64,000 nucleotides of DNA from Gammaproteobacteria bacterium (GTDB lineage: Bacteria; Pseudomonadota; Gammaproteobacteria; Pseudomonadales; Azotimanducaceae), in the NCBI GenBank assembly GCA_026708185.1, contig JAPOVK010000016.1, forward strand, positions 62,001 to 126,000. Direction: 5' to 3'. Made by a program: the position numbers and the translations under genes. A model generated the notes under the pieces. It had not been told where the DNA came from, ran no database searches, and was given only the letters and a program-made list of their open reading frames with translations. Below are positions 15,619 through 19,005 of the stretch, in pieces. Every line of letters starts with the position of its first letter. Within the stretch, counting starts at the first letter, position 1.

Positions 15619-16509
15619 GTGGCCGTCCAAGCTCACCTGGTCGACGGCACCTTCGAGCTGTTTCGCTGCTTCCACGGCGCGCCCCGGCACGTCAACGCCA
15701 AGGGCGAGGAGGTCGGCGCTGTCCGCGGCCTCCTGCACACGCTGCTGTCCCTGCTCAAGTCCGACGACGTCAGCCACGTGGCGGTGGCGTTCGATGCGTT
15801 GCCGGCGGCACGTGGCCCGGTCAAGGACGAGCCGGGCATTCTGATCAGACGCCAGGCGCCCCTCGCACTGGACGCAGTGCGCGCGCTCGGCATCCGACTG
15901 TGGCCCATGGTTCGCTTCCAAGCGGACGATGCCCTGGCCACGGGCGCACGGGTTCTCCGCGAGGACGCAGGCGTGGAGCGGGTCGTCCTCTGCACCAGCG
16001 ACACGGACCTTTTCCAGTGCATTCGCGGCGAGCGCGTGGTCGTGCTGAACCGCATCTCCAAGACCGTCACGGACGAGACAGCCTTCCGCAGCCGCTACGG
16101 TATCGCACCGCAGCAGTTTCCCGACCACCTCGCCTTGGTCGGCGCGCCGGCCAAGGGGCTGCCCGGTGTGCCGCGTTGGGGGTCACGGACGGCGGCCGCC
16201 ATGCTCCATTGCTACGGGGCAATCGAGCGCATCCCCGAGAATGCCGCTGACTGGGAACCGAAGGTCCCCGGCAAGGCACGGCTGGCCGCGGAACTCCTCG
16301 CCGGACGCGACGAAGCGCTGCTTGTGAAACGGCTCGCGACCTTGCGTGACGATCTTCCGATCGACTGTTCCGTAGGGGCCTTGGCGTGGCGAGCGCTGGA
16401 CGAACCACGGCTGCGGCGCGTCGTTGCTCGCGCCGAGGCGTCCGATCTGTGGCCTCGGATCGAGCGCTGGCGCCCTGGTCCCGAACGGCGCGACGCTACG
16501 CGCCTGTGA
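15619..16509 (+). CDS. 5'-3' exonuclease (FEN/Pol I 5'-nuclease domain) stand-alone protein
   Basis: Predicted structure-dependent 5'-nuclease of 296 residues related to the N-terminal domain of DNA polymerase I, without a polymerase domain. Acidic metal-binding clusters are visible: LVDGTFELFRCFHG, AVAFDALPAARG, QADDALATGA and LCTSDTDLFQ, and then the helix-hairpin-helix-like LVGAPAKGLPGVPRWGSRTAA, where the usual GDxxDNIPG is altered to GAPAKGLPG. The start is GTG at 15619, 15 bp after the CoA-transferase stop. The 3' end overlaps the convergent selenoprotein gene by 14 bp. A role in repair or RNA-primer removal is likely but not shown. Confidence 0.85.
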   Translation: MAVQAHLVDGTFELFRCFHGAPRHVNAKGEEVGAVRGLLHTLLSLLKSDDVSHVAVAFDALPAARGPVKDEPGILIRRQAPLALDAVRALGIRLWPMVRFQADDALATGARVLREDAGVERVVLCTSDTDLFQCIRGERVVVLNRISKTVTDETAFRSRYGIAPQQFPDHLALVGAPAKGLPGVPRWGSRTAAAMLHCYGAIERIPENAADWEPKVPGKARLAAELLAGRDEALLVKRLATLRDDLPIDCSVGALAWRALDEPRLRRVVARAEASDLWPRIERWRPGPERRDATRL

Positions 16510-17023
16510 GAATCCCCACGCCCTGCTCGAACGCTGAACGTGCCCGGCCCTTGAGTTCGTCCAGGGTACGGCTGCCGATCGGGTGGTCGACCATCGCGAA
16601 CGGGTAGCTCGGTATGCCGAGTGCCCTGGCGATGTTGCGCCCCGTCACCTCGAACGGGTAGGTGCAGATCACCAGCGCGGGCTTGCCAAGCTGTTCGAAG
16701 GAAATGCCGTCATGCACACTGCACGTTGAGCAGCTCCCTCAGTCGCCGACCGCCGTGATCAGGAAGTCCGCCCTGCCCGACAACTCCCGGTGATGTTCCG
16801 GAAGCGCTGGTCTCGACGCGTTCCCCTTGTTGATGAAACCGCCGACTTCGCAGCCGAAGTCGCGGGCGAAGAGAGCGGCCGTCTCGTTCAGCAGCACGTC
16901 CGCGTTGGCCTTGCCGTTGGACAACAGGCCGATGCTCCGTCCGGCCAGGTCGTCGAGACGGGGCGCCAGGGTCCGTTCCGTCGATCCGCCGCGGCCGCCC
17001 GGGTCGATCAAGGTCATGCTCAT
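16496..17023 (-). CDS. UGSC-family selenoprotein (in-frame UGA read as selenocysteine)
   Basis: A continuous 176-codon frame interrupted only by one UGA at 16739-16741. Codons after UGA read Gly-Ser-Cys, so decoding UGA as selenocysteine gives U95-G96-S97-C98, exactly the name-giving motif of the UGSC (seleno)protein family. The 94 residues before it (MSMTLIDPGGRGGSTERTLA...) and the 80 after it (...EQLGKPALVICTYPFEV...) stay in one frame and look like one domain. The start is ATG with GGAGG ten bases upstream. A conventional caller would give two fragments, 16739-17023 and 16496-16717, or a pseudogene. It is the last gene of an operon with an SDR and a Cys-rich protein. UxxC suggests thiol/selenol redox chemistry, but the reaction is unknown. 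Selenocysteine machinery (selA, selB, selC) is not in the window. Confidence 0.88.
16711..16741 (-). promoter_or_regulatory. Candidate bacterial SECIS hairpin after the UGA codon
   Basis: In the mRNA, 13 nt after UGA, a six-base-pair stem forms: C-G, G-U, U-A, G-C, C-G, A-U (CGUGCA with UGCAUG) closing a three-base loop GUG. The loop begins 19 nt after UGA. Bacterial SECIS elements have a small apical loop with G in its first two positions about 16-37 nt after UGA, so spacing and loop fit. The stem is short and one pair is G-U. Folding was done by eye. Confidence 0.55.
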
Positions 17024-17059
17024 TCTGGATTGCCTCCTAGTTGCGCAGCGTAAGCCTCG

Positions 17060-18112
17060 CTAGCAGTCGATACACACGCCGATGGGTTTGGATTGCATGA
17101 TGGAGCCTCGGCTGCGGCTCCACGAAGGGATGAACGCCGAGTGACCGCCGGCATCGCCGCCCGCCACGGTGACGAGGATGTCGTCCGGGCCGAAACCGCG
17201 GCGGACATCCGCCGTACCTTGGCGCTCGTGCTCCCGGGGAACGTACTTCCTGACCTGTTTCATGGCCTCGACGGACTGCGAGGCATTCTCGAACAGGTAC
17301 TGCCGTACATCGGCCTTGGTCCAGCCGGTGCTCGCGACGATCTCCGCATGTTCGGGGGACAGCACGACCACCGACTGGCCCGTCGTGATGCAGCCCAAGT
17401 TGGCCATTGAGTCCGCGACGCAGTCGAGGATGGCTTCCGGCGTGTTGCCGCCATGGTTCTCGACGTTGCAGAAACCGGCGCCGGCGAACACCGTCACGCT
17501 GGAGATGTCCTCGCCAAAGCCGAGTTCCACGTTCAGAGGCTGCCAAGGATTGCGCTCGGCCCGTTCCGCGATGCACGAGCAGTACTTGCCCGGGTGGCCT
17601 TGGGTGGACTGGTCCGATACGCCTGGGATCATCTCGAAGACATTCATGATGACGAGCCGCATGGCGCGTCCGATCGTCGCGTTGGCGCGATTGCCGGGGC
17701 CGAAGACGTTGCCGGCCGCGTTCATGCCGATGTCGGTCACCACCGGACCGGCAACGATCAGCATCGGGGCCGAACCGCCGGTGCTGGCCGTCGAGCCGTG
17801 AAAGTTGTACGCGGGCTCGTTGGCCGCCTCCAACGCGGCCACGACAACCGGGAAGTACTCCGGAAGGCAGCCCGCCATGACCGCGTTCACCGCCGCGGCC
17901 AGGATGCTGCACTCGAGCCCCGTGGTCGGGTGGGTCGCGATCACCGTCTCGGCCGGGCGGCCTTCCATGGCGAGCATCGACTCGACACGCGACATCTCGG
18001 GGGGCACCACCGGCAGGCCGTCGGTCCAGCCCCGTTCGTAGCAGGCGTCGATCGCGGCCAGGACATCGTCCTCGACGTCTACCGTCCTGGCTGTGCTGGC
18101 GATGCTGGCCAT
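17060..18112 (-). CDS. Unrecognised Cys-containing protein, operon partner of the UGSC selenoprotein
   Basis: A 350-residue protein with no signal peptide and no motif I can assign to an enzyme class. Visible traits: a Gly/Asn/Ala-rich middle (NAAGNVFGPGNRANATIGRA), and many cysteines including a CSC motif near residue 205 and a C-terminal CIDC ending the protein. It also has WTDGLPVVPPE near the N-terminus and HPTTGLECSILAAA. The start at 18112 has GGAGGG nine bases upstream and lies 10 bp after the SDR stop. The selenoprotein gene follows 36 bp downstream. Clustering with a UGSC protein suggests a shared redox function, which is inference only. Confidence 0.75.
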   Translation of the reverse strand: MASIASTARTVDVEDDVLAAIDACYERGWTDGLPVVPPEMSRVESMLAMEGRPAETVIATHPTTGLECSILAAAVNAVMAGCLPEYFPVVVAALEAANEPAYNFHGSTASTGGSAPMLIVAGPVVTDIGMNAAGNVFGPGNRANATIGRAMRLVIMNVFEMIPGVSDQSTQGHPGKYCSCIAERAERNPWQPLNVELGFGEDISSVTVFAGAGFCNVENHGGNTPEAILDCVADSMANLGCITTGQSVVVLSPEHAEIVASTGWTKADVRQYLFENASQSVEAMKQVRKYVPREHERQGTADVRRGFGPDDILVTVAGGDAGGHSAFIPSWSRSRGSIMQSKPIGVCIDC

Positions 18113-18122
18113 AACGTCCCTC

Positions 18123-18887
18123 CTAGTAGGCGCTGCTGCCGCCGTCCGCCTTGTAGATGGCGCCCGTGACGAAGGCCGCGTCATCGCTGGCCAGAAACAG
18201 CATGACACGGGCGATGTCGTCCGGCTGCGCGTAGCGGCCGAGCGGGATGTTGGCCGCGATTCGCTCCCGCGCAGCCTGCGGATCGTCCGGCGACATGCCG
18301 GCTTCGAGGCTGCGCATCATGCGCGTGTCCACCGGCGAGGGGTTGACGGTGTTGACGCGGATGTTCATGGGCGCGCACTCGCGCGCGGCGGCCCTCATCA
18401 AGCCGATGACGGCGTGCTTGCTCGCACCGTAGGGCGCGATCCCGGGCGTCCCGGACAGGCCGGCGACGCTCGACGTGATCACGATGCTGCCGCCGCCCCG
18501 GGCGGCGAGCGCCGGGATGGCGGACTTCAAACCCAGCCACACGCCCTTGACGTTGACCGCCATGACGCGGTCGAAGTCCTCCTCGCGCGACTCGACGATC
18601 GGCGCCACCGCGCCTTCGATGCCGGCATTGGCGAGGAAGATGTCCACGCCGCCGTAGCGCTCGGTGGCGACTTGGAACATGCGCTCGTTGTCTGCGGCCC
18701 GGGTGATGTCGGCGGCGCACGCGCTCACCCGGTTGCTGCCGATCGCGCGCAAGGCGTCGTCGAGCGCGTCTTCGGCCAGGTCCACGATCAACACATTGGC
18801 GCCCTCGGCGGCGAAGCGTCTCGCAGCACCCTGGCCGATGCCGCCGGCGCCACCGGTGATCACTGCGACCTTGCCGTCAAGCCTCAT
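18123..18887 (-). CDS. SDR family NAD(P)-dependent oxidoreductase
   Basis: Classical short-chain dehydrogenase/reductase of 254 residues. It has the cofactor loop TGGAGGIG, the acidic residue after strand 2 (VLIVDLAED) favouring [11 protein letters not shown], and the catalytic Ser in [10 protein letters not shown] with YGASK carrying Tyr and Lys. The C-terminal [18 protein letters not shown] is standard. The start [10 protein letters not shown] at 18887 was preferred over ATG 18914 because family homology begins there. It is the first gene of the operon with the Cys-rich protein and the selenoprotein. The alcohol/ketone substrate is unknown. Confidence 0.92.
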
Positions 18888-19005
18888 GTTCTTTTCCCCA
18901 TGCGCGAAGGGCACGATTATGGATCAGTTCCTCAGGTCCTGGCGCACAGCGTTGCCTTCGCGGCGTCGCTCTTGCGACACTCACGGTCGACTTAGGCGAG
19001 ACCGC

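Follow-up and report, generated by a model that had tools for sequence, protein, structure and literature searches.

The UGSC family is described, in the passages devoted to it in the Global Ocean Sampling (GOS) survey, as one of the major selenoproteins of that dataset, with a likely thioredoxin-like fold and occasional fusion to a domain called Unknown_1 (PMC2398784), and a listing of 2026 places it among the selenoproteins that are largely uncharacterised in function (PMC13188914). The UGSC passages of these two papers, and those of PMC9312934, PMC5330540, PMC7539508, PMC5029168 and PMC9402790, mention neither a link to GrdB nor an obligate partner. In glycine reductase, as portrayed in the relevant parts of two accounts, the substrate-binding protein B carries selenocysteine (Sec), ammonia is released, thioredoxin is the reductant, and GrdA is thought to interact with the UxxCxxC motif (PMC13188914, PMC10298544); a GrdB/GrdE relative has been proposed, in a passage of a further paper, as the enzyme that breaks the C-F bond in fluoroacetate (PMC10838667). 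Here we describe a UGSC-family gene in a 64,000-nt stretch of DNA (the window, meaning the whole stretch analysed) from a gammaproteobacterium of the Azotimanducaceae (assembly GCA_026708185.1, contig JAPOVK010000016.1, positions 62,001 to 126,000). The gene itself is just another member of a known family, and the novelty lies in a second, near-obligate partner gene and in a homology to the Sec-bearing C-terminal domain of selenoprotein B (GrdB/GrdF/GrdH/PrdB). An original prediction made from the window had called the family functionally unknown, which agrees with the published passages, and had missed both the partner and the homology. The features concerned are as follows:

16496..17023, minus strand: UGSC-family selenoprotein gene, from ATG at 17023 to TAG at 16498-16496, based on translation with TGA read as U, Pfam UGSC and 73 related loci
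16739..16741, minus strand: Sec codon UGA (U95 in DUGSCSTC), based on the codon found at that site in relatives
16711..16725, minus strand: bacterial Sec insertion sequence (bSECIS) hairpin core CGUGCA-GUG-UGCAUG, based on folding and a compensatory pair in 79 sequences
17033..17038, minus strand: Shine-Dalgarno sequence AGGAGG for the UGSC gene, based on sequence
17060..18112, minus strand: partner gene of 350 aa, with ATG 18112 chosen as start in a frame open from 18208, based on linkage to and co-occurrence with UGSC

Family membership is straightforward, as had been proposed. The window protein matches Pfam UGSC (PF24696) with E 3.5e-47 and 161.2 bits against a cut-off of 25, and NCBIfam NF041046, with Cys substituted for Sec, with 121.2 bits, narrowly below the 125-bit cut-off. 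It corresponds to the described family (PF24696, NF041046, PMC2398784) across its full length, carries the [U/C]-G-S-C motif as DUGSCSTC together with the UGA and a bSECIS, and shows no essential difference from it. The 176-codon frame (175 aa plus TAG) with a single UGA and U-G-S-C was found as described, on the minus strand, a detail absent from the original prediction; its one in-frame TGA is codon 95, within ...ITAVGDUGSCSTCSVHDGISFEQ..., and the plus-strand frame over 16496-17023 has two TGAs and no UGSC motif. Ordinary open reading frame (ORF) calling breaks the gene in two, just as expected from the in-frame UGA, giving a 94-aa ORF and a 73-aa ORF with a GTG start.

The genome of the window, which is 97% complete, contains all four genes of Sec decoding on which the earlier claim had been made to depend, namely tRNA-Sec (selC; anticodon TCA, 68.8 bits), selB (385 bits), selA (545 bits) and selD (250 bits); selA, selB and tRNA-Sec are adjacent on contig 3, which also carries selD at another position. 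A scan of public genomes yielded 73 related loci, of which 72 have alignments that reach the UGA site (L088 begins past it). The region of the GSC codons aligns in relatives, Cys forms included. UGA occupies the corresponding codon in 71 of the 72, at identities down to about 51%; the lone exception is L079, a GDSESC version with TCA at this site. Fetched loci led to ten genomes with 29 UGSC matches, 28 of them with one in-frame TGA, and the window genome has three UGSC genes with one TGA each. Among 58 genomes searched as relatives, the window's own included, a selA match accompanies UGSC in all 36 UGSC genomes (two below the cut-off), five further genomes have selA without UGSC, and 17 have neither.

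Cys forms occur as well. For plasmids, ten loci were fetched with 8-10 kb flanks, comprising nine of 14 places with a UGSC match plus Variovorax SRS16; two of these are Sec forms (Acidovorax and Paracoccus) and eight are Cys forms, to which L113 and two genomes of a phylum-wide set (G143 and G277) can be added. Cys forms with the same partner are found in haloarchaea, Arthrobacter, Roseovarius, Variovorax and Embleya. Cultured organisms with a Sec-type gene include Reyranella soli, Enhydrobacter aerosaccus and Acidovorax sp. T1, and Cys-type pairs are present in Roseovarius sp. THAF8 and Arthrobacter sp. ERGS1:01. Other variants were observed alongside: the Cys-type UGSC of Arthrobacter (L208, 10001-10816) is extended at its C terminus by a segment containing a CSDC motif; a CGSC form in G277 (L115) is split across frames with a TGA elsewhere, through decay or sequence error; and Ser-for-Sec paralogues (SESC, SECS) are present in L079 (5013-5516), L139 and L114 (5479-5967), with the partner not found in the fetched stretches.

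The hairpin after the UGA has six pairs, a GUG loop and a UGA-to-loop spacing of 19 nt, reproducing the geometry given in the original prediction. In the folding check proposed with it, the window sequence alone was no more stable than expected by chance (z -0.69; 46 of 200 shuffles equally or more stable), and support for the SECIS comes from comparison across relatives. Of 84 distinct Sec-form sequences, 80 satisfy a lenient bSECIS-like rule, which a control region 60 nt downstream satisfies in 31 of 84, and two hairpin types recur after the UGA, CGUGCA-GUN-UGCAUG and CGUGGA-GUN-UCCACG. Among 79 aligned sequences, 63 have C-G and 16 have G-C at stem pair 21-27, and none is mispaired there; the covariation score is 0.165, compared with a shuffled mean of 0.098, and none of 500 shuffles is as high. 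Three of five covariation measures are higher than in any of the 500 shuffles, and the other two are not significant (both-side pair changes, 40/500; further pair types, 416/500). The outermost of the seven tested stem pairs is unpaired in 60 of the 79 sequences, and the stem is shifted in some, such as L159-L165. The hairpin is gone from the folded stretch of the Cys form L113 and retained in the Ser form L079, apparently as a relic. The swap from C-G to G-C in the stem is accompanied in the protein by Cys to Trp, and often by Val/Leu to Phe, so that RNA and protein constraints overlap here. The Sec machinery, the UGA kept in nearly all relatives and the supported SECIS hairpin together show, within the limits of sequence evidence, that the gene encodes a genuine selenoprotein made by recoding of UGA.

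The partner gene lies upstream of UGSC at a distance of 36 nt and is present in 67 of the 72 loci. Three of the five loci without it begin at a contig end (L047, L060, L091), L021 has it unlinked, and L079 is the Ser form. It is more conserved than UGSC itself, with identities of 57-98% (67 loci) compared with 47-94%. Neighbourhood clustering of the 72 close loci, which used greedy ORF picking with wrong frames at some loci and possibly missed neighbours, gave a partner cluster that was the largest by far (47 loci), the next real gene cluster comprising 8. When divergent paralogues are included, both genes occur in 128 of 138 loci of a partly redundant set, in either order, and some of these loci contain UGSC-partner fusions or two partner domains in tandem; one natural fusion involves a UGSC gene of the window genome, and a natural fusion is located at L112 (4364-6001, minus strand). 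The two genes occupy the identical 36 of the 58 relatives' genomes and the identical 4 of 299 genomes across the phylum. On plasmids, the partner lies within 300 nt in 14 of 14 UGSC places, comparing match ends. The partner is present in 24 plasmid records, ten of which have no UGSC match at E 1e-3; six of these ten were fetched, the remaining four all being from Neorhizobium, and five of the six proved to have a UGSC-like domain adjacent or fused to the partner, with CGSC in Variovorax SRS16 and Halostagnicola, HCSTC in Neorhizobium, and DMGTS in Vibrio europaeus and, as a weak match, in Sporomusa; the sixth is Haladaptatus. The partner thus almost always accompanies UGSC and is its near-obligate companion. 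Two of its cysteines are nearly invariant (C82 in 64 of 66 sequences, C180 in 63 of 66). It has no match in the PDB at E up to 10, and its best matches in Pfam (E 0.018) and NCBIfam (E 0.022) are not convincing. Unknown_1 of the GOS survey, likewise a conserved domain fused to UGSC in the passages describing it (PMC2398784), is probably the same protein, found here beside UGSC in Proteobacteria, Chloroflexi, Actinomycetota and haloarchaea.

Profile comparison connects UGSC with selenoprotein B. An alignment of 65 UGSC proteins compared by hhalign with seven GrdB/GrdF/GrdH/PrdB-type sequences, three of them unannotated and assigned by similarity, gave a probability of 94.3 and a score of 57.2 with Sec aligned on Sec; 200 column shuffles reached at most 21.7, and with nine motif columns masked the score was still 37.6. 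A GRDB match is found in 27 of the 58 genomes, and one locus, L172 (1237-2571, minus strand; see also L202), from a genome in the window's family, encodes a full GrdB/GrdF-type protein (PF07355, E 4e-134) with a GrdG-like gene upstream. Against L172 alone the UGSC alignment scored 48.8 (probability 93), the best of 200 shuffles and of 250 real ORFs being 22.6 and 31.7, respectively. The Sec region of L172, GVQAVIFTSTUGTCTRCGATMVKELERAGLPTAHIC...IPHPLG, aligns with RADFLITAVGDUGSCSTCSVHDGISFEQLGKPALVIC...VDHPIG of the window protein. The Pfam GRDB match in L172 stops at residue 357, and Sec is residue 358; the relation may have been overlooked before because the match ends one residue short of Sec. 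In the reverse direction, the Pfam UGSC model matches L172 with E 0.0035, below its cut-off. At E up to 1, the NCBIfam GrdB, GrdF, GrdH, PrdB and mixed-family models match 12, 8, 2, 1 and 6 of the 65 UGSC proteins, with best E values of 1e-4, 3.3e-5, 0.0012 and 0.013 for the first four, and two of nine UGSC proteins scanned singly match these models, with Sec/Cys near model position 350 if ungapped.

The C-terminal approximately 85 residues of selenoprotein B (PF07355, TIGR01917, NF040794, NF040795, TIGR04483) thus appear homologous to UGSC, sharing Sec on Sec, UxxCxxC, E..G.P and HP[LI]G, and both proteins are encoded in a two-gene layout with a partner, as in grdG-grdF. The sequence evidence therefore supports a distant homology between UGSC and the C-terminal, Sec-carrying domain of selenoprotein B. 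The systems differ in that UGSC lacks the N-terminal GrdB region and its partner is not detectably GrdE/GrdG/PrdA, and many UGSC carriers are expected to be aerobes. Further relatives of selenoprotein B were seen. The window genome has three more GRDB-family (PF07355) proteins, PrdB-like, with an in-frame UGA in a UPxC motif (G000:C56:42846-43202, C31:160352-160705 and C8:7639-8043). In these the UGA comes right after the GRDB match and there is no UGSC motif; taken singly, they score no higher against the UGSC profile than the best real-ORF decoys.

Their linkage, their fusions and their occurrence in the same genomes lead us to infer that UGSC does not act alone and that the two proteins form one enzyme or complex. 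The reading we prefer, with somewhat more confidence than doubt, is a two-component Sec reductase for a small organic acid, in which the UGSC subunit would be a free-standing relative of the selenoprotein B C-terminal domain; the substrate class is suggested by analogy with glycine reductase-type enzymes. In such an enzyme, the partner would bind a small organic acid, or a substrate resembling an amino acid, and orient it, the selenolate of Sec would attack a carbon-heteroatom bond (C-N, C-O, C-S or C-halogen), and the nearby Cys residues of UxxCxxC would resolve the resulting selenoether or selenenyl-sulfide. The reductant is probably thioredoxin, which together with thioredoxin reductase, encoded beside some versions, would regenerate the enzyme. 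The product may then pass into coenzyme A (CoA)-dependent catabolism, a step proposed because transporters, CoA transferases and dehydrogenases are among the neighbours.

TrxB-like genes were found in 9 of 102 UGSC stretches and in none of seven control stretches, six of the nine being among the ten plasmid loci. The gene order is trxB-trxA-partner-UGSC in Arthrobacter and partner-UGSC-trxB in Roseovarius; in Variovorax SRS16, trxB lies upstream of the partner with two genes between them. Oxidoreductases that share 32-33% identity with these TrxB proteins are encoded in V. boronicumulans and Haloterrigena. On pFER4 of Paracoccus ferrooxidans (L210), UGSC, partner, trxB, selA and selB all lie within 10 kb, and the UGSC gene there is annotated as two hypothetical fragments. 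The remaining four plasmid loci have no TrxB-like gene. For comparison, the grd operon of C. difficile includes trxA3/trxB3, according to the passage concerned in PMC10880999. Genes listed in more than one plasmid or paralogue locus, as occurrences and not as an enrichment statistic, are those for tripartite tricarboxylate and tripartite ATP-independent periplasmic (TRAP) transporters, CoA transferases, short-chain dehydrogenases/reductases (SDRs) and LysR regulators, along with amidase, RraA-like, phosphoenolpyruvate (PEP) mutase/isocitrate lyase-type and phosphosulfolactate synthase-type genes. The last of these occur near UGSC in an actinobacterium (L208) and a haloarchaeon (L209) and may point to a sulfonate substrate. 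Two partner-containing fusions, on plasmids of Vibrio europaeus (L227, 2323-4008) and Sporomusa (L229, 2311-4035), both have aconitase X and DUF126 genes nearby.

In the window itself, one further gene precedes the pair:

18123..18914, minus strand: SDR-family dehydrogenase, just upstream of the partner, based on a Pfam match

It is probably co-transcribed with partner and UGSC in the window. It was rejected as a conserved third member of the system, since one of 87 testable loci has it immediately before the partner. At the other end, the UGSC gene and an opposite-strand 5'-3' exonuclease-like gene (15619-16509) overlap by 14 nt at their 3' ends (16496-16509). A search for a phage origin of the region gave no match.

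Several observations weigh against a two-component reductase related to selenoprotein B. With regard to the pairing, the genome of L021 has UGSC and partner both present and unlinked (G311/G359, matched via equal coordinates); in the fusions of Vibrio europaeus (E 5e-6) and Sporomusa (E 0.0012), the UGSC-like domain fused to the partner has DMGTS in place of the redox motif; and in Haladaptatus no UGSC of any kind was found within 3 kb of the partner. As for the homology, the NCBIfam selenoprotein B matches all fall far below the curated cut-offs, the window protein alone matches none of these models, and 3 of the 65 UGSC proteins also match an unrelated family, mycofactocin MftE, at E values down to 1.3e-4. 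A plain HMMER search placed one unrelated ORF (E 0.021) above two of the seven selenoprotein B sequences; pooling with UPxC-type GRDB relatives lowers the hhalign probability to 53.7, and none of 20 GRDB-like sequences other than L172, taken singly, beats the best of the 250 real-ORF decoys (29.7 compared with 31.7). The N-terminal part of GrdB is missing from UGSC, PF07355 not being among the 18 Pfam families matched by the 65 members at E up to 1, and no UGSC relative was found in the PDB. The thioredoxin link is thin and not shown for the window's own subfamily: the window has no TrxB-like gene, only L059, L113 and L116 of 92 non-plasmid UGSC stretches have one, and the trxB gene of Paracoccus is some 9 kb away from UGSC. 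Finally, hhalign comparison of the partner with five GrdE/GrdG/PrdA-type sequences gave a probability of 0.5 and a score of 20, below the best of 80 column shuffles (26).

This last result bears most directly on whether the partner might be a pyruvoyl proprotein of the GrdE/PrdA type that has diverged strongly, in which case the pair would be a genuine protein B of the Grd/Prd class. The two-gene layout, as in grdG-grdF and the like, would fit, and the near-invariant C82 is conceivable as a pyruvoyl precursor, yet GrdE/PrdA homology is unsupported by a score that shuffled columns exceed; since the partner shows no sequence relation to GrdE/GrdG/PrdA, a pyruvoyl step is unsupported and the pair is not classed as a Grd/Prd enzyme. 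We regard this explanation as improbable. A stronger case, still on the unlikely side, can be made for UGSC as a thiol/selenol oxidoreductase or peroxidase with a thioredoxin fold, which would keep other proteins, or the partner as its dedicated client, in the reduced state. A thioredoxin-like fold is the published guess for UGSC in the GOS passage (PMC2398784). The UxxC motif, the trxA/trxB neighbours at some loci and the partner's two conserved cysteines are in keeping with it, as is a match of 1 of the 65 UGSC members to DUF899 (E 0.048), which we take to be thioredoxin-like. DUF899 aside, however, no thioredoxin-fold family was recognised among the 18 matched Pfam families, and the profile comparison favours selenoprotein B beyond the motif.

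It is more doubtful still, and a little less probable than a pyruvoyl partner, that the Sec/Cys motif is a metal or metalloid ligand and the pair a metal-handling or detoxification system. The Cys-rich UGSCSTC motif could serve such a role, ligand functions have been proposed for other uncharacterised selenoproteins in a passage of PMC13188914, and an annotated zinc ABC transporter substrate-binding gene lies about 2 kb from UGSC in Acidovorax; but no other annotated metal gene stands beside the pair at the nine annotated plasmid loci (Embleya is unannotated), and the listed neighbours include organic-acid transporters, CoA transferases, dehydrogenases and trxB. That the in-frame UGA is a sequencing error or the mark of a decaying pseudogene has a negligible probability. 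Decayed-looking forms do exist in the family (L115 and the Ser forms L079 and L114), but the conservation of the UGA in distant relatives and the covarying SECIS pair lead us to reject this explanation for the window gene, and the full Sec machinery and the conserved sequence on either side of the UGA also stand against it.

Returning to the two-component Sec reductase, we further suggest, tentatively and with less confidence than we place in the enzyme itself, that UGSC and its partner may represent an unrecognised class of thioredoxin-driven Sec (or Cys) reductases, in which a selenoprotein-B-type Sec domain would be combined with an unrelated substrate subunit. If so, Stickland-type reductive cleavage of carbon-heteroatom bonds would extend beyond anaerobic fermenters to marine, sponge-associated and soil bacteria, and the same chemistry would occur, in Cys form, in haloarchaea. 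With a two-protein system, a kinship to selenoprotein B and Cys versions in cultured bacteria and haloarchaea, an orphan selenoprotein becomes a testable enzyme hypothesis.
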